The notes under the pieces are model-generated. The model made no database searches. It was not told where the DNA came from and saw only the letters and a list, made by a program, of their open reading frames with translations. A stretch of 24,715 bases of DNA from IMG/VR virus record IMGVR_UViG_3300046749_000089, positions 1 to 24,715 of that record; one strand, 5' to 3'. The stretch is from a virus. Shown in pieces: positions 124 through 17,808 of the stretch (positions are counted from its first letter, which is position 1; each line of letters opens with the position of its first letter). The position numbers and the translations under genes are program-made.

Positions 124-290
124 TACTTTATACAGAACAACAATTAGAGGAGTCTTGGCACATACATTGCGCAGAAATATTATACAGTAATGTTGAAAGC
201 AAAGTACAAGTTGTATTGCCAACACTAGAAGAATTTAGACCTATATATGAAGAGGCTATGGAGGACTACATGAATTATGGCGAACGATAG
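120..290 (+). CDS. Small hypothetical protein, 56 aa
   Basis: The ORF begins at ATG 120 in an ATGA overlap with the preceding stop and ends at TAG 288-290. The protein starts MILYTEQQLEESWHIHCAEI and is acidic, with no membrane segment, signal peptide or metal-binding pattern. Its end overlaps the next gene by 14 bases. Its position in a tightly coupled run of genes and its good start context argue that it is coding. I have an impression that proteins with a similar N-terminus occur in other marine phages, but this is not checked. The function is unknown. Confidence 0.6.
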   Translation: MILYTEQQLEESWHIHCAEILYSNVESKVQVVLPTLEEFRPIYEEAMEDYMNYGER

Positions 291-759
291 AGTAAGTAGA
301 GCAACAGCGGAGTTAGTACCCCTTCCGCCACATACTTGGTATGTGAGAACTGTGGGTTGGTTATTAGAACAACAAAAAGTACAAGAGAACATTAAAGATG
401 TACCAGAGAATGCACCACTAAAAGCAGCACTAATAAAAGAAGGCATACGGTCACCGTTTTTATGTATGCCAAACTGGTACCCAATAGCAGGTAGTCAAAG
501 ACTAAGAGTATTAGTAGATGTACCTGAATTACATAGTGCAGAAGTGAGAGTATGTAAATTCGATAAGGAATGGTGGTTATTATATTATTTATGGGGTGAC
601 GAAGAGTTTAGAAACAAAGCAATTGCTATTTGGTTTCAAATGGCAGAATTAGTATGGAAGTCAATGTATTATGAAGACGACCCTACATTTTTAGAACACG
701 AAGCATTAGGAGATGAGTTACCTTGGAAGCACAAGTCAAAGTTAACGGGCAAGTTATAA
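277..759 (+). CDS. ParB-like (ParB/sulfiredoxin fold) domain protein
   Basis: This 160-aa protein has a central stretch, about residues 50-75, that resembles the ParB N-terminal box: LKAALIKEGIRSP, a hydrophobic strand, then PIAGSQRLRVLV. That matches the family pattern of L..S+...G...P followed by (I/V).G.+RL.A. The C-terminal half is rich in Trp, Glu and Asp and has no helix-turn-helix that I can see, so a plasmid-type partition role is unlikely. Phage ParB-like domains are often stand-alone nuclease-like or NTP-binding domains. The start at ATG 277 has GGAGG at 260-264, a somewhat long spacing of 12 bases, and overlaps the previous gene. The fold is inferred from the short motif only; the substrate is unknown. 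Confidence 0.5.
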   Translation: MANDRVSRATAELVPLPPHTWYVRTVGWLLEQQKVQENIKDVPENAPLKAALIKEGIRSPFLCMPNWYPIAGSQRLRVLVDVPELHSAEVRVCKFDKEWWLLYYLWGDEEFRNKAIAIWFQMAELVWKSMYYEDDPTFLEHEALGDELPWKHKSKLTGKL

Positions 760-1217
760 TTCTAGCAGATACTAACCCTTTACATCAAGATGGGTATTGT
801 CAATGGAAAAATATACTGACAGGACAGATATGGAATATCGATGGCAGTGAGGCACAGGTATGCTTTAATGCTGAGTTAGCAGATGAATTTAAAATTAATT
901 TTCTTGCTCCAGTAATAACTAGACCGAATACCGTAGAAATATGTAGAAACAATAAAATAATAGAGCATACATGGGTAGAGATAATAGACACAGAATTAGA
1001 CCAAAATCAAATTATGGTACATGATTTATATGATGGCAATATATTTGTAGACATATGGGAAAAAGGTGTAGGTTATGTACCTAGTTGCGGAACAGGAGCT
1101 GCATCTGCAGCATTATTTAGTGACAATATATTTGTAGATGTATATTGTAGAGGCGGTAAGTATACAATCAAAAAGGATTATTACAGATGGACTATGGAAG
1201 CGGAAAATATTTCTTGA
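723..1217 (+). CDS. Miniature diaminopimelate-epimerase-like protein
   Basis: The 164-aa product resembles both halves of DapF in shortened form. Residues 107-131 (VDIWEKGVGYVPSCGTGAAS plus AAL) match the DapF C-terminal signature RV.ERG.GET.ACG.GACA, with C122 at the catalytic position. It is followed by VDVYCRGGKYTIKKD, like the DapF V.V.LPGG.L.I strand. Residues 37-56 (WNIDGSEAQVCFNAELADEF) resemble the N-terminal half signature FNADGSE..QCGNG.RC, with C47 in the equivalent place. DapF is normally about 270 aa and interconverts LL- and meso-diaminopimelate with two cysteines. Here the inter-motif region is about 100 residues shorter and the CGNG loop is changed to CFNA, so epimerase activity is uncertain. 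It starts at TTG 723, with AGGAG at 708-712 and no earlier usable start; the first in-frame ATG would remove most of the protein. It is the last gene before promoter P1. Confidence 0.6.
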   Translation: MEAQVKVNGQVIILADTNPLHQDGYCQWKNILTGQIWNIDGSEAQVCFNAELADEFKINFLAPVITRPNTVEICRNNKIIEHTWVEIIDTELDQNQIMVHDLYDGNIFVDIWEKGVGYVPSCGTGAASAALFSDNIFVDVYCRGGKYTIKKDYYRWTMEAENIS

Positions 1218-1246
1218 CACAAACTTAAAATTTTGATATAATATAT
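1212..1246 (+). promoter_or_regulatory. Consensus sigma70-type promoter P1
   Basis: TTGACA at 1214-1219 and TATAAT at 1237-1242 are separated by exactly 17 bases, and the bases before the -10 element read TGA, an extended -10 motif (TGnTATAAT). The expected transcription start is near 1249, only a few bases before ATG 1253 of the primase, so the leader would be nearly absent. The 35-base block is shared, with two mismatches, with the promoter at 12475-12509. It lies at the end of the preceding gene, whose stop TGA 1215-1217 falls within the -35 element. Confidence 0.88.
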
Positions 1247-1252
1247 ATAATT

Positions 1253-2092
1253 ATGATAGCAGAAGAATTACTACAAAGCAAAGGAATACAGTACCAAGTA
1301 AGTGGGAAGGATGCAAAAATACATTGTTTGAATCCTGAGCATGATGATACTAACCCCTCAATGAGAGTCGATAGAATAACAGGAATATTCCATTGCTTCT
1401 CGTGTGGCTATAAAGGTAATTTATTTACATACTTCGGTGCTCCCGAATCTCCAACTGAGGTTCGTATACACCGAATAAAAGACAAGATACAAAAAGTTAA
1501 AAGCGAAACTGTCGGCATACAACTCCCAAAAGACAGATTGGAATGGAGAGGTGGAGGATTTCGGAACATTTCCGAAGAGACTCTTGCAATCTGGGATGCG
1601 TTCACATGGAATGTACCTAGATTTGAGAATCGTATCATCTTTCCAATCCGAGACATTACAGGGAAGACAGTTTCATTGATAGGTAGAAGTCTGGACGATT
1701 TTAGTACAATGAAGTACTATATCTATCCAACAGGAGCGGAGATGCCGTTTTGTCCAGCAAAAGTAAAACCTATGCAAGGAAGAGTTATATTAACAGAGGG
1801 TATATTTGATGCCCTCAATCTTTGGGACAAAGGTCTCAAAAATTCTGTGTGCTGTTTCGGTACACAGCAAGTGAGTTGGGTCAAACTAAGTCTACTGAAG
1901 CTACAAGGCGTTCAAGGTATAGATATTATGTTTGATGGGGATGAGGCGGGCAGACAAGCTAGTGAGAAAGCGAAAGAGATTGCTGAGAAACTAGACATGA
2001 GTGCCAGGATAGTAAAGTTACGAGATAACATAGACCCTGGCAATTTAACAAAACCAGAAATAGAGAGATTAAAAGAAAAATTATATGGCTAA
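1253..2092 (+). CDS. DNA primase, zinc finger plus TOPRIM
   Basis: This protein should synthesise RNA primers for phage DNA replication. The N-terminus carries a CHC2-type zinc finger with C25, H30, C48 and C51 (CLNPEH ... HCFSCGYKGN). The C-terminal half is a TOPRIM domain with the catalytic Glu in VILTEGIFDAL (E182) and the metal-binding DGDEAGR (D228, D230). At 279 aa it is short compared with bacterial DnaG (about 580 aa) and lacks both a helicase domain of the T7 gp4 type and an obvious DnaB-interaction domain. It is the first gene after promoter P1, and its ATG lies only about 4 bases after the predicted transcript start. Its stop overlaps the polymerase ATG by 8 bases, a replication pair. 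The assignment is secure at family level. Confidence 0.9.
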   Translation: MIAEELLQSKGIQYQVSGKDAKIHCLNPEHDDTNPSMRVDRITGIFHCFSCGYKGNLFTYFGAPESPTEVRIHRIKDKIQKVKSETVGIQLPKDRLEWRGGGFRNISEETLAIWDAFTWNVPRFENRIIFPIRDITGKTVSLIGRSLDDFSTMKYYIYPTGAEMPFCPAKVKPMQGRVILTEGIFDALNLWDKGLKNSVCCFGTQQVSWVKLSLLKLQGVQGIDIMFDGDEAGRQASEKAKEIAEKLDMSARIVKLRDNIDPGNLTKPEIERLKEKLYG

Positions 2093-4349: not shown

Positions 4350-4995
4350 TGAAACAATCTTTATACATATACCAAAGTGTGGCGGGACTGCCATCACAGC
4401 TCAGTATTTACATAAGTATGGTGTTCCAACTGACCCACAAATGCGAGTGGGAACACAGACCTGGAGTCAAGGATATGCAACTCATTATATAAGAGGTTGG
4501 AGAAATCATCCACCCTATAAAATGTATACTATGAATATGCATGCAACTTACGACCAGTATGCCTTACAATATCCTGATTGGAAATACCTTTCATCAGTAA
4601 GACATCCATATAATCGTTTTCGTAGTGCATGGAATCATCTATCAGATATTGAATTAGTAGATACACCTTTTAAAAATTGGGTTCCTCGTGCCATTGCTAG
4701 TATGCAAGAGGGTAAGTGGAACAAGTGTATAGATGACAAAGATGCATTGTATGAATTACATATAATGAAACCATCGTTTGACCCAAGTATAGTTATGAAA
4801 CCACAATGGCAATGGATAAGACCAGGAGTAGAAGTTCATAAGTTAGAAGATAAAACTATTTGGGAGAAACTAAAGATAAAAGAAGCTAGAAAGAATGTAA
4901 GTCAAAGCAGACCTTATGAATGGACAGATAAAAACAAAGAGTTAATATACGAGTATTACAAAAAAGATTTTGAGGATTTTTATTATGGAGCCTAA
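4336..4995 (+). CDS. Sulfotransferase family protein
   Basis: The product should transfer a sulfuryl group from PAPS to an unknown acceptor. The N-terminus carries the 5'-phosphosulfate loop ETIFIHIPKCGGTA (P13, K14, C15, G16, G17, T18), the form found in carbohydrate sulfotransferases of the Sulfotransfer_2 type. SSVRHPYNRFRSAW (R89, S97) matches the 3'-phosphate-binding motif R.P..R..S. It is 219 aa with no membrane anchor, so it acts in the cytoplasm. ATG 4336 is preferred over the TTG at 4324 because AGGAAAG at 4316-4322 is too close to the TTG; either way it overlaps the end of the polymerase gene. Two genes downstream is an APS-kinase-like domain that could supply PAPS. The acceptor could be a glycan, lipid or protein, and nothing in the sequence decides it. 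Confidence 0.8.
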   Translation: MICRNETIFIHIPKCGGTAITAQYLHKYGVPTDPQMRVGTQTWSQGYATHYIRGWRNHPPYKMYTMNMHATYDQYALQYPDWKYLSSVRHPYNRFRSAWNHLSDIELVDTPFKNWVPRAIASMQEGKWNKCIDDKDALYELHIMKPSFDPSIVMKPQWQWIRPGVEVHKLEDKTIWEKLKIKEARKNVSQSRPYEWTDKNKELIYEYYKKDFEDFYYGA

Positions 4996-5728
4996 GACTT
5001 ACTTAGATTTCGAGGATAGACAGCATAAAGGCGAGGGCGTAGCTGATTTTGAGAATATAGATACTATTATACCTCACGGTGGTGGAATAGAAAGCCAAGC
5101 AGCTTTGGCATGGGCAATAGATACAGGTAAAAAGCCTATTGTTTGGACAGATTTAATTGCAGAAGTGCCTGGAGCACATAACTTAGTTCTTGCTGCTAGA
5201 AAGTCAGCAGACTATTTTAAAGTGCCATTTGTATTGAGTACTAATTCAATACCTATGAAATCTATAAACATACCTGCAGGGTTTTTAAACATTGATAATG
5301 TAGTAAAACTAATAGTAGGAAACCCACAGTGGGCTATAGAATATGTTGTATTTGGAACGAACACTGATGATAGTGGACAACAAAGAGGTATGTTAAAAAA
5401 TGTACAAAGAAATGTAGAAATGATAAAAAATCAAGAGTGGGAAATACATGGGTTGCAGTGGGAAAAGAAATTAGGTACACCCCTAATGTTATTTCCATTT
5501 GAGCATAATACAAAGTCAGAGATATACTCATTTATTATGAGAAAATATCCTGTCCTAGTAGATTATGCATGGACTTGTATGCAACCAGTACAAGTAAAAA
5601 AAGATAAAAGATGGTTGCCTTGCGGTAAGTGTGCTAAATGTATAGAGTACAAGGCAGCAAAACAAACAGCAGAAAATGCATGGTTGAAAGTAAAAGTAGG
5701 AAAAAATTATAAGGATTTATTGAAGTGA
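4985..5728 (+). CDS. QueC-like PP-loop enzyme (7-cyano-7-deazaguanine synthase-like)
   Basis: QueC converts 7-carboxy-7-deazaguanine to preQ0 using ATP and ammonia. Family features seen here are a PP-loop near the start (IIPHGGGIESQAALAWA, residues 28-44), a middle YVVFGTNTDDSG stretch, PFEHNTKSEIYSFI like the QueC TK.EI segment, and a C-terminal cysteine set C198, C213, C216, C219 (WTCMQ ... PCGKCAKC) like the QueC zinc site. The PP-loop reads GGGIES rather than SGG.DS, so the usual Asp is Glu. No other 7-deazaguanine genes (FolE, QueD, QueE, DpdA or Gat-QueC) are in the window. ATG 4985 has TGAGGAT at 4971-4977 as ribosome binding site; the upstream TTG 4970 is less likely. A sulfur-pathway PP-loop enzyme is a weaker alternative because the zinc cysteines favour QueC. 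Confidence 0.7.
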   Translation: MEPKTYLDFEDRQHKGEGVADFENIDTIIPHGGGIESQAALAWAIDTGKKPIVWTDLIAEVPGAHNLVLAARKSADYFKVPFVLSTNSIPMKSINIPAGFLNIDNVVKLIVGNPQWAIEYVVFGTNTDDSGQQRGMLKNVQRNVEMIKNQEWEIHGLQWEKKLGTPLMLFPFEHNTKSEIYSFIMRKYPVLVDYAWTCMQPVQVKKDKRWLPCGKCAKCIEYKAAKQTAENAWLKVKVGKNYKDLLK

Positions 5729-8297: not shown

Positions 8298-8431
8298 ATT
8301 TTGACAAAAGTTTTATACCAGTATGGATAATACTAGCAATGCTAGTGTCTATGACTGTGTATGAACAAGTAAAAGTTAAACAAGTATGTGATTATACATT
8401 TCATGGAATTTATATATGTGCGGATTCGTAG
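8294..8431 (+). CDS. Tiny single-span membrane protein, 45 aa
   Basis: This short ORF starts at ATG 8294, in an ATGA overlap with the preceding gene, and ends at TAG 8429-8431, overlapping the amidotransferase gene by 16 bases. The hydrophobic segment FIPVWIILAMLVSMTVY (residues 7-23) would form one membrane helix, followed by a short basic stretch and two cysteines (C32, C42). It fills what would otherwise be a gap of over 110 bases in a gapless operon, the main reason to believe it. The function is unknown. Confidence 0.6.
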   Translation: MNFDKSFIPVWIILAMLVSMTVYEQVKVKQVCDYTFHGIYICADS

Positions 8432-9921
8432 TAACAACAGATACTGAAAATTGTGGTGAGATGATGAAACGACAAGAGTTTCGTGGTCCCGATGCAATGT
8501 CTATGTGGAAAAACAAAGATATTGCTATGGCTCACGCATTACTAGATATCAATGGAGAAAAACAATTACAACCATATAAAACCAAAAAGAATAATTATTT
8601 AGTATTCAATGGCGAGATGTATGATACTAATATACAGAATGATACAAAGTACTTAGCTGATGGACTAGAAACATATGGATTTAAGTTTTTAGAGTGGAAT
8701 GATTGGCATGGAAGTTTAGCATGGTATCAACCAGAGAAAAGAAAATTAGTTATATGTAGAGACCACTTTGGAGCCAAACCTTTATGGATACATAAAAAAG
8801 GTAAAAATGTTACTGTTACTACAAGTCTAAGAAGCTTGTCAAATTTAGAAGAAAATACAAAAACAAAGCAAGGATATGTAATAAACTCATTATTACAAGG
8901 ACATGAGAGTCCTTACAAAGATGTTATGAAAGTAGCTGCTGGAGAGTATGTAATATTTGATTTCAATACAGATAAAATAATATTTAAGAATCTTTGGAAT
9001 AATTTTAAAATAAAAAGTAATCCGTTTAATAAAGAAGAGTTTAGAACAAGACTAATATCAAATATACAAAAGATAGCAAGTAATAAACAAAAGACAGGAT
9101 TATTTTTGAGTGGGGGATTTGATAGTACATTTGCTCTATCAGTAGTAAAAGATATGGATTTAGACCTTACTGTATACATATGTGCTTATGATAACACAAA
9201 AGGACTATATAATGACCATAATGGGTTTAGATTAGAGGCTAAATTAGCTGCACAAACTTGTAAAGAATGGGGTGTAAAACATAAAGTAGTTGTACTACAA
9301 CAAGACAAAATATATGACTACGATAGAAGATGGCTAAATAATGCTAGATTCCCTTGGTCAGATAGAAATAGACGAGCACCAAGATACTTTCTAGCAGAAC
9401 AAGCTGCTAAAGATGGTTGTAAAGTAATAATTACAGGAGATAGTGCAGATGAACTGTTCTCTGGATATTTACATCATCATAAGTATTGGATAGAAGGATA
9501 TTGTGAACATAAATTAGAATACTATAAATCAGAGCCATGGCTTCCTAAGATACAGTTTTCAGACGATAAATGGAACAATATGTTGATTTGTGATTTGATG
9601 ATAACATCCGAGCAGAATATACTAGCAACTGACCAAACCTGCGGAATGTTTGGAATGGAAAGTAGACCTGTATATTTAGGTCAAAATTTTGTTAGATATT
9701 GTTATGAATTTGATGGTATGACAAAATTTAAACAAAGATTTGGATGGGACACAGGAGTATATAAATACTTACTTAGAGAAGTTATGGGGGATATGTTACC
9801 AAAACATATTATAGACAGAAAGAAAAAGACAGGCTGGAGCAGTCCTTGGGATAACAACCACCCAAGAATACAAAAAGAATGGAGAATTGCAGATTGGCAG
9901 TACATGAAGGAACTAAGTTGA
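8416..9921 (+). CDS. asnB: Asparagine synthetase-like glutamine amidotransferase
   Basis: The 501-aa product has the two-domain layout of asparagine synthetase B. A class II glutaminase domain starts with the catalytic Cys2 (MCGFVVTT), followed by EFRGPDA, NYLVFNGEMYD and CRDHFGAKPLW. A synthetase PP-loop domain has LFLSGGFDSTFAL (S232-S237) and the downstream IITGDSADELFSGY. AsnB makes Asn from Asp, Gln and ATP, and relatives amidate sugars or peptides. It is slightly shorter than E. coli AsnB (554 aa). It starts at ATG 8416, since the Cys must follow the initiator Met. Between small membrane genes and a cytidylyltransferase, it could serve amino-acid supply or surface-molecule amidation; the sequence does not separate these. 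Confidence 0.88.
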   Translation: MCGFVVTTDTENCGEMMKRQEFRGPDAMSMWKNKDIAMAHALLDINGEKQLQPYKTKKNNYLVFNGEMYDTNIQNDTKYLADGLETYGFKFLEWNDWHGSLAWYQPEKRKLVICRDHFGAKPLWIHKKGKNVTVTTSLRSLSNLEENTKTKQGYVINSLLQGHESPYKDVMKVAAGEYVIFDFNTDKIIFKNLWNNFKIKSNPFNKEEFRTRLISNIQKIASNKQKTGLFLSGGFDSTFALSVVKDMDLDLTVYICAYDNTKGLYNDHNGFRLEAKLAAQTCKEWGVKHKVVVLQQDKIYDYDRRWLNNARFPWSDRNRRAPRYFLAEQAAKDGCKVIITGDSADELFSGYLHHHKYWIEGYCEHKLEYYKSEPWLPKIQFSDDKWNNMLICDLMITSEQNILATDQTCGMFGMESRPVYLGQNFVRYCYEFDGMTKFKQRFGWDTGVYKYLLREVMGDMLPKHIIDRKKKTGWSSPWDNNHPRIQKEWRIADWQYMKELS

Positions 9922-12918: not shown

Positions 12919-13534
12919 CCAAACCAAGGGCTCAGCCCAAAAAGAAAAAATCGAAACCTATAACTATGCAGGTAAAGAAGACCACCACCTAAGAATGGTT
13001 GGAGACTTACTACCTAGATATGTCTATTGGATTAAAGGAGAGAATAACAAGAATATTCCTATGGAGTGTTTATCTTTCGATAGAAACTCTGAAACCTTTA
13101 ACAACAAAGAACATGACCATGTTCGTGACTTTTACCCTGACTTAAAATGTGGATGGTCTTACGCTGTCCAATGCATAGACTACGGCGACAAATCAGTTAA
13201 AGTTCTTAATCTTAAGAGAAAACTATTTGACCAAATGATTGTAGCTATGGAAGAGTTAGGCGACCCAACAGACCCTGTAACAGGATATGACATTCATTTC
13301 AAGAGAAAGAAAACAGGTCCACAGGTGTTTAATGTTGAGTATCAATTACAAGTTCTAAAGTGTAAACCAAGAGAACTTGAGGATTGGGAAAAAGACTTAG
13401 TAGCAAGTCTAAAATCTATGGATGATGTCTTACCAAGACCAACCGCAGATGCACAATTAGAGTTACTAAGAAGAGTGAATAATCAAGGCGATGAACCTTC
13501 ACAAGAAGTTTCTGACGAGTTTGACGTATCATGA
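12902..13534 (+). CDS. Single-stranded DNA-binding protein, phage type
   Basis: The 210-aa protein fits phage ssDNA-binding proteins, which protect template strands and recruit replication and recombination enzymes. Support comes from the central GDPTDPVTGYDIHFKRKKTG segment with the following NVEYQLQVL strand, typical of OB-fold phage SSBs. The C-terminal tail is acidic (GDEPSQEVSDEFDVS), ending in a cluster like the protein-interaction tail of T7 gp2.5 and T4 gp32. There is no Cys/His zinc site as in T4 gp32. ATG 12902 has AGGAG at 12891-12895 six bases upstream; the longer start at 12878 is unlikely. It sits directly before recombination genes. Confidence 0.75.
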   Translation: MAIGFNQTKGSAQKEKIETYNYAGKEDHHLRMVGDLLPRYVYWIKGENNKNIPMECLSFDRNSETFNNKEHDHVRDFYPDLKCGWSYAVQCIDYGDKSVKVLNLKRKLFDQMIVAMEELGDPTDPVTGYDIHFKRKKTGPQVFNVEYQLQVLKCKPRELEDWEKDLVASLKSMDDVLPRPTADAQLELLRRVNNQGDEPSQEVSDEFDVS

Positions 13535-14076
13535 TTGGAGTAGGAGATAAATTTCCAGAGTTTACACTTAACGGTGTAAGTGGTAACATGAGTTTTAACG
13601 AAGATTGGAAAGACGCAGACCATGACTTTATTAAAGTTAATAGTTGGGATTTATCTGACTGGTCTGTAATTTACTTTTACCCAAAAGACTTTACATTTAT
13701 TTGCCCTACTGAGATAGTAGGTATGGATAGCTTAATGGCAGAAACTGATGAAGTTTATGGCATAAGTCCTGATAACGAATATTGTAAATGGGAGTGGAAA
13801 ACAGGTGATGAACATGCACCTCTTTATGGCGTAGAACATGCACTTTTAGCTGACTGCAATAACAATCTTGCAACAGCTTTAGGAATTGTAAGCGATGAAG
13901 GTGTTCCTTATAGAACAACCTACATACTTGACCCAGAAGGAATAATACAGCATGTATCTGTTAACGCTCTAAACACAGGCAGAAATGCAAATGAAGTTCT
14001 TAGAACTTTACAAGCATTAAAAGCAGGTGGTCTCACAGGTTGTGAATGGACACCAGGAGATGACTTCGTAGCATGA
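13531..14076 (+). CDS. Peroxiredoxin, AhpC/2-Cys type
   Basis: This 181-aa thiol peroxidase should reduce H2O2 or organic peroxides. The active site YPKDFTFICPTEI has the peroxidatic Cys58 with the conserved Pro and Thr of P...T..C. R at GVPYRTTYILDPEG supplies the family Arg. Near the C-terminus GLTGCEWTPGDDF holds a candidate resolving Cys171, as in typical 2-Cys enzymes. There is no signal peptide, so it is cytoplasmic. It is linked by ATGA overlaps to the SSB upstream and the gp47-like nuclease downstream. A reductant could be the host thioredoxin system; the phage glutaredoxin at 17805 is another candidate. Confidence 0.9.
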   Translation: MIGVGDKFPEFTLNGVSGNMSFNEDWKDADHDFIKVNSWDLSDWSVIYFYPKDFTFICPTEIVGMDSLMAETDEVYGISPDNEYCKWEWKTGDEHAPLYGVEHALLADCNNNLATALGIVSDEGVPYRTTYILDPEGIIQHVSVNALNTGRNANEVLRTLQALKAGGLTGCEWTPGDDFVA

Positions 14077-16988: not shown

Positions 16989-17377
16989 AACAACCACCAA
17001 TACATAGAAGATTAATAATGTTTGTAGTTGATAGTTGGAGAGTGATTATGGATGCTAGATACAATCCACTAAAATATATTCCCGACCCAAGTCTACAGAC
17101 TTATTTTATGTTAGTATTATTTACAATGTGGAGTGTATACTTTGGATTTGTAGCAACCTACTATATGGGTTGGCTAGGGTATAGCACAGTAACAAGTATA
17201 ATTGTCCACATATGTATATTACTACCTCTTGCATTCACAAACGCAGTGTTTGCAGATGCAGAAAGAGACCATGCTCCCTGGTTACTACAGTGGAGAAAAG
17301 AACAAAAGTCATGGAAGTTTTGGCAAAGAAGAACAAAACCAAACATGGTAAGATGGGATATAGATAAAGAAGCATGA
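16985..17377 (+). CDS. Two-span membrane protein, 130 aa
   Basis: The protein has a basic N-terminus (HRRLIMFVVDSWRVIMDARY) and two hydrophobic helices, about 40-62 and 66-89. A hydrophilic C-terminal tail is rich in Trp and basic residues (WRKEQKSWKFWQRR). I do not recognise the family. Placed between another small membrane protein and a secreted cytochrome c, with ATGA overlaps on both sides, it may help localise or interact with the cytochrome, but this is inference from position only. A membrane-perturbing (holin-like) role cannot be excluded. Confidence 0.65.
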   Translation: MKQPPIHRRLIMFVVDSWRVIMDARYNPLKYIPDPSLQTYFMLVLFTMWSVYFGFVATYYMGWLGYSTVTSIIVHICILLPLAFTNAVFADAERDHAPWLLQWRKEQKSWKFWQRRTKPNMVRWDIDKEA

Positions 17378-17808
17378 AGTTTTACGTATTATCAATAGTA
17401 ACATTTATGGTATGTACCATAGCTTTAGCATATAACAATCTAGAGTATAAAGGATACTCAGGAGCACACTCTTGCACAGGCGAGTGTTATGCAGAATATG
17501 TAAAGATTCATGGTACACCAGCACAGATAGAACAGAAGAAAAAAGAACTTGCAAGTGCAGATGAATTTAGTTCTATTAGAAGTTTATGGGCAGGTTGTGC
17601 AGCTTGTCACGGTAACGAAGGTCAAGGCATGGCAGTATTTCCTAAACTGGCAGGCCAAAGTTCCGAGTATATAATCGACCGACTCAATACATATAAAAAT
17701 AGAGGAGAAGTCGGAAGTATGAGTTCTACAATGTGGGCTCAAGCAGGTATGCTTTCAGAACAAGAGATTAACACAATAGGAAAATTCATTGAGGAGACAA
17801 TGAAATGA
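17374..17808 (+). CDS. Secreted c-type cytochrome (class I)
   Basis: This is a phage-located electron-transfer protein of 144 aa. It starts with a Sec signal peptide (MKFYVLSIVTFMVCTIALA, AxA cleavage after residue 19). The haem attachment motif is CAACH (C75, C78, H79) in LWAGCAACHGNEGQG, followed by FPKLAGQSSEYIIDRLNTYK, as in the cytochrome c4/c5/c553 group. The sixth ligand is probably M116 or M120 in GSMSSTMWAQA. The helix EQEINTIGKFIEE closes the domain. Between signal and haem domain, residues 20-70 include a C34/C38 pair. It would be matured by the host Ccm system in the periplasm. Overlaps with its neighbours show that it belongs to the phage operon. Confidence 0.88.
   Translation: MKFYVLSIVTFMVCTIALAYNNLEYKGYSGAHSCTGECYAEYVKIHGTPAQIEQKKKELASADEFSSIRSLWAGCAACHGNEGQGMAVFPKLAGQSSEYIIDRLNTYKNRGEVGSMSSTMWAQAGMLSEQEINTIGKFIEETMK

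Follow-up and report, generated by a model that had tools for sequence, protein, structure and literature searches.

The mini-DapF gene of this uncultured virus is, as judged by sequence comparison, a real gene for a remote homologue of diaminopimelate epimerase (DapF), and its product is probably a minimal, cofactor-independent two-cysteine racemase or epimerase of some amino acid built on a condensed DapF fold. The gene lies in the window, by which we mean the whole 24,715-base IMG/VR viral record analysed here, and the features discussed below are collected in Table 1. The initial annotation had assigned this DNA to a phage, in agreement with the viral record from which it comes and with its phage-type replication genes.

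Table 1. Positions of the mini-DapF gene, its motifs and associated features (window coordinates unless a relative is named)
Feature	Position	Strand	Remarks
Mini-DapF gene	723-1217	+	164 aa, TTG start; DapF model, predicted fold, relatives, dN/dS
N-half motif N-x-D-G-S-x-A-x-x-C	834-863	+	Residues 38-47; C47 (861-863) candidate catalytic residue
C-half motif E-K-G-V-G-Y-V-P-S-C-G-T-G	1059-1097	+	Residues 113-125; C122 at 1086-1088
Upstream neighbour gene	277-759	+	160 aa; no family match; ParB/sulfiredoxin-type likeness by eye only
Perfect sigma-70-type promoter	1214-1242	+	TTGACA, 17-base spacer, TATAAT, TG preceding; 12/12 consensus bases
Primase-like gene	1253-2092	+	Zinc ribbon and Toprim; Pfam PF13155, PF01807; downstream edge of the slot
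Nested tRNA-Ala	L148 4603-4678 (in ORF 4447-5040); L146 2910-2985; L147 4603-4678; L149 3290-3365		

The NCBIfam DapF model TIGR00652 matches the window protein at E 9e-9 with 35.1 bits, under its curated cut-off of 114.65, and the Pfam DAP_epimerase family (PF01678) matches residues 113-128, which include C122, at E 7.2e-7 with 29.7 bits (cut-off 34.7). The clear C-terminal DapF signature around C122 that had been read from the sequence by eye is thereby corroborated, as is the contrast in length with a DapF of about 270 aa, since the E. coli enzyme used as a control has 274 aa (348.5 bits on TIGR00652). The weaker N-terminal signature with C47 has held up as well: in relatives, this half (residues 38-50) is matched alone by the DapF model at model positions 37-76, with E values of 0.008 and 0.013 in the case of one virus record. 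This separate match, together with the invariance of the N-half signature in much more divergent subfamilies, argues that the two motifs do not occur together by chance. A profile of the three subfamilies described below matches DapF at E 2.3e-9 in an alignment of 161 columns, and the best-scoring of them, subfamily C, reaches 48.4 bits on TIGR00652 (E 8e-13), still under the cut-off. The match of the window protein to PHROG 13202 has an E value of 0.045. The protein is thus a homologue within the DapF superfamily that falls outside DapF proper in its curated score, in its length (164 aa, and 164-205 aa among relatives, against about 270 aa for a full DapF) and in its far-carboxylate site.

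Searches with the protein, with alignments, with the neighbour gene and with two DNA motifs brought up relatives in about 39 uncultured viral contigs, some of them partial. These relatives form three subfamilies. Subfamily A, which includes the window, comprises proteins of 164-186 aa with 43-100% identity; subfamily B (L146-L149) has 197 aa, and subfamily C (L173, L177, L179) about 205 aa from an inferred GTG start. With its DapF match at E 8e-13 and its retained C-terminal VYEG strand, subfamily C bridges the window protein to DapF. The homologues elsewhere that the initial annotation had proposed to look for therefore exist among uncultured viruses, whereas the cultured phages and phage records searched yielded no relative of either the window protein or subfamily C, and no cultured phage was found close to the window in DNA. 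Nor did a search of GTDB genomes return a relative; a full-length DapF, sought in three related contigs, was not found there, the mini form being the only one recovered, and a search of the accessible literature for phage DapF or mini-DapF retrieved nothing relevant. Two candidates were set aside: the matches of L046 to cultured phages reach only E 7-8, the Synechococcus phage BUCT-ZZ01 among them looking unrelated, and L178, picked up by the motif scan, matches only fortuitously in a 40-residue frame. The carriers are a group of uncultured marine phages; one relative, a 105-kb contig (L007), has 37% G+C and a T5-like terminase about 48% identical to that of Pectobacterium phage My1.

Several other genes were noted in these genomes. 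The window encodes a c-type cytochrome with a signal-peptide-like start and a CAACH haem motif (17374-17808; PF00034, E 2e-8), a relative of which also occurs in the 105-kb contig, as well as a peroxiredoxin of the AhpC/TSA type (13531-14076; PF00578, E 2e-23), an asparagine-synthase-type amidotransferase (8416-9921; PF00733, E 3e-31) and, as judged solely by eye, a QueC-like ATP-pyrophosphatase (4970-5728). An IscU/NifU-type iron-sulphur scaffold is encoded in a 105-kb relative (L082 5297-5713, minus strand; PF01592, E 8e-40). An attempt to trace the host through the phage cytochrome c led to two MAG contigs that may be phage themselves. None of the neighbouring genes points to a pathway.

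At the position of the TTG start, relatives have ATG, GTG or TTG. The 160-aa upstream gene, which shares 37 bases (723-759) with the mini-DapF gene, is 78-94% identical among relatives and lies 5' of every mini-DapF locus for which the flank was read. The promoter at the end of the mini-DapF gene recurs with the same sequence in relatives L012 and L148, and the primase follows the slot in relatives as well; further downstream in the window is a family A DNA polymerase, which is matched most closely in T5-like phages. The mini-DapF gene is constrained by purifying selection yet evolves faster than its neighbours (dN/dS 0.09-0.44 against 0.03-0.23).

The residues that are invariant across the three subfamilies are mostly DapF active-site residues. 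They are M1, N8, Q10, Q27, N38, D40, G41, S42, A44, C47, N49 and I58, followed by H82, E113, G115, V116, G117, V119, S121, C122, G123, A130, G144 and G145. Both candidate catalytic cysteines, which the initial annotation had noted in the window protein, are kept in all three subfamilies, in N-x-DGS-x4-C and E-x-G-x-G-x3-[AS]-C-G-[ST] contexts; the N-half motif aligns with DapF N-x-DGS-x4-C73 (N38, D40, G41, S42, A44 and C47 invariant), and the C-half motif matches DapF ERGxGxTxACGSG (E113, G115-G117, S121, C122 and G123 invariant). In H. influenzae DapF, Gly74, Asn75, Gly218 and Ser219 bind the reacting carboxylate and Asn11 binds the reacting amino group; at the far end, the amino group is held by Glu208 and Gln44, and the carboxylate by Asn64, Asn157, Asn190 and Arg209 (PMC8225329). 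When aligned, the phage proteins retain Asn75, Gly218, Ser/Thr219, Glu208, Gln44 and Asn64, while Asn11 is replaced by Gln (the invariant Q10) and Gly74 by Phe or Tyr. Among the four far-carboxylate ligands, Asn64 is kept, Asn157 is absent, the placing of Asn190 is uncertain (N95 or Q96), and the Arg209 position holds Lys, Arg or Glu (Glu in L051). Such a pattern is what might be expected of an amino-acid racemase with a changed far-end pocket.

The paired half-barrel fold that had been suggested for this protein is also predicted. An AlphaFold2 model from a 15-sequence alignment has a pLDDT of 82.4 and a pTM of 0.77, values to be read in the light of the few related sequences, all from one clade, and of the predictor having seen DapF folds; it supersedes a 12-sequence model (pLDDT 75.6, Z 11.6). 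The model superposes on diaminopimelate (DAP)-bound C. glutamicum DapF (5m47) with Z 15.2 and 2.4 A over 156 of its 164 residues, its residues 1-161 aligning with DapF 6-266, so that both halves are present in the prediction, each as a half-domain with a central helix and with the active site between them. All 50 matches listed in the PDB search belong to the DapF/PhzF/proline-racemase superfamily, and 97 chains have a Z of at least 8. Predicted helices 48-55 and 123-132 begin right after C47 and C122; likewise, in solved DapF-fold enzymes the helices begin just past the cysteines (PMC11602996). Ligand-bound DapFs account for three of the four best matches (Z 14.7-15.2), whereas ligand-free or oxidised DapF reaches at most 13.6, and these superpositions imply that in the predicted structure C47 and C122 should face each other across the cleft. 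The first 40 residues of the model have pLDDT values of 59-79. By alignment, where local confidence is low, size would have been lost mainly in the first alpha-helix of each half, in the middle strands and, in the window's subfamily, in the C-terminal strand, which is shortened in the window protein and kept as VYEG in subfamily C. Assigning the strands before residue 95 to the N-half was considered and dropped, as the profile alignment sets the invariant H82 on the C-half residue His159 of DapF, again with low local confidence. A search of a viral structure library, which may nevertheless contain a relative, gave no match at E 0.001 or better.

On this basis, we propose that the two half-domains oppose each other with C47 and C122 as an acid/base pair, in which one cysteine would strip the alpha-proton from one face of the amino acid and the other would return a proton on the opposite face. 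The loops that follow the cysteines (F48-N49 and G123-T124) would bind the alpha-carboxylate, and Q10, E113 and Q27 the amino groups. As substrate, we consider probable an amino acid whose far end is smaller than that of diaminopimelate or differs from it. DapF (PDB 5m47, 1gqz, 3ejx) resembles the phage protein in the predicted two-half fold, both cysteines, the N-x-DGS and E-x-G-x-G / CG[TS] motifs and most active-site residues; the phage protein differs in being phage-borne, in having 164-205 rather than about 270 aa, in lacking Asn157 and a conserved Arg209, and in the replacements at Asn11 and Gly74. These four changes also count against a racemase, and the shortened C-terminal strand, which builds the dimer in HisR, could impair a dimeric enzyme. 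The closest parallels besides DapF are racemases derived from it that use two cysteines and no cofactor and have altered far-end pockets, namely O-ureidoserine racemase (7vdy; Z 15.0 to the phage model), the histidine racemases HisR/CntK (Z 11.7-12.7) and the diaminobutyrate racemase PddB, which also lost the DapF far-carboxylate ligands (PMC8225329). Unlike the phage form, these are bacterial proteins of about 240-290 aa. PhzF, YddE and proline racemase/hydroxyproline epimerase share the fold at Z 11-13, with 6-14% identity in the superpositions, the proline racemases among the matches listed having 329-376 aa; PhzF is not known to use a cysteine pair. DapF genes in phage-collection records are full-length or cut forms of the bacterial type, none of them condensed, and several of these records are plainly bacterial DNA (Salmonella, Acinetobacter).

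The initial annotation had left three functions side by side, namely a change in peptidoglycan precursors, action on another amino acid, and a non-enzymatic re-use of the fold. The conserved active site speaks for an enzyme, and the partly lost second-carboxylate site makes diaminopimelate a less likely substrate. Re-use of the fold as a small non-catalytic binder of an amino acid or a partner protein, which might for example modulate replication or RNA decay, is rather unlikely. It would suit the position of the gene in the replication region and its faster evolution, as is often seen in host-interaction proteins, and such functions do exist, as E. coli DapF binds RppH directly and stimulates it (PMC4227774). 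However, a scaffold needs no invariant cysteine pair, anion-binding loops and E113, Q27 and N38 maintained over three divergent subfamilies. We consider it more improbable still that the protein is a true miniature diaminopimelate epimerase that changes the LL/meso-DAP balance, and with it peptidoglycan or lysine supply, during infection. DapF is its closest family by sequence and among the best by fold, and the far-end residues Gln44, Asn64 and Glu208 are kept; but Asn157 is absent, Arg209, which forms the far-carboxylate salt bridge, is not conserved, the score is 35 bits against a cut-off of 115, and in PddB the loss of far-carboxylate ligands accompanies a changed substrate (PMC8225329). 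That the gene is a decayed remnant of a captured dapF or a functionless chance motif match is scarcely credible, for although single-sequence scores are below the curated cut-offs and the length is 60% of that of DapF, the frame is open in about 39 contigs, dN/dS is well below 1, the active site is invariant and the predicted chain superposes as a whole on DapF.

The mini-DapF gene is an accessory module that these phages exchange at a single fixed site among their replication genes. This variable accessory slot, seen in the window (277-1253) and in the surveyed loci, is bounded by the 160-aa gene and the primase. Among 64 viral loci recovered through the 160-aa upstream neighbour, the slot before the primase holds subfamily A in 16, subfamily B in 4, a methyltransferase-like gene (weak Pfam matches) in 16 and a DUF1281-like gene in one; it is empty in 26 and cut in one. 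Subfamily C has the same 160-aa upstream gene. Two loci, L041 and L051, share 95% identity across the 6 kb upstream of the gene and 93% across 1.4 kb downstream of it, whereas the gene itself shows no match at the nucleotide level and only 42% protein identity; one junction falls about 47 bases into the gene from its 5' end and the other immediately ahead of the stop. Since a diverged gene is set between near-identical flanks, whole alleles have been exchanged.

In subfamily B, the ORFs contain, in frame, an intact tRNA-Ala(TGC) with CCA (ARAGORN; Rfam 68.8 bits), which starts immediately behind the C-Y-N codons of the first catalytic cysteine and is found in four contigs from four IMG datasets and two subclades. 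Between the subclades there are no differences in the 76 tRNA bases against 36 in the ORF (P about 0.007), and these 36 are concentrated at third positions of codons (10/3/23; P 2e-4); removal of the 76 bases causes a frameshift and a stop at codon 56. With the tRNA unchanged, the third-position bias and the break in frame, both the tRNA and the protein appear to be maintained. A different tRNA-Ala(TGC) is located upstream of the 160-aa gene in L012 (2890-2965), L039 (3793-3868) and L051 (5465-5540), which indicates that the region gains tRNA-Ala genes more than once.

A more specific reading can be offered tentatively: the protein may be the smallest known complete two-half DapF-fold racemase, of a phage-specific lineage that retains the two-cysteine active site within 164 residues. 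By acting on some amino acid that is not DAP, it would change the metabolism of the host or counter a defence, and it would pass between phages as a cassette. The solved DapF-fold chains among the matches listed have 242-376 residues, and a 164-residue form that keeps the active site would, if this is true, reveal how small a part of the fold suffices for catalysis and provide a handy model for two-base racemases. The graded lengths of about 270, 205, 197 and 164 aa provide a natural record of this shrinking. That alleles are exchanged at one constant site suggests that the host exerts selection. If the reading is right, this group of uncultured marine phages would carry a novel type of auxiliary enzyme for phages, one that alters the stereochemistry of amino acids.
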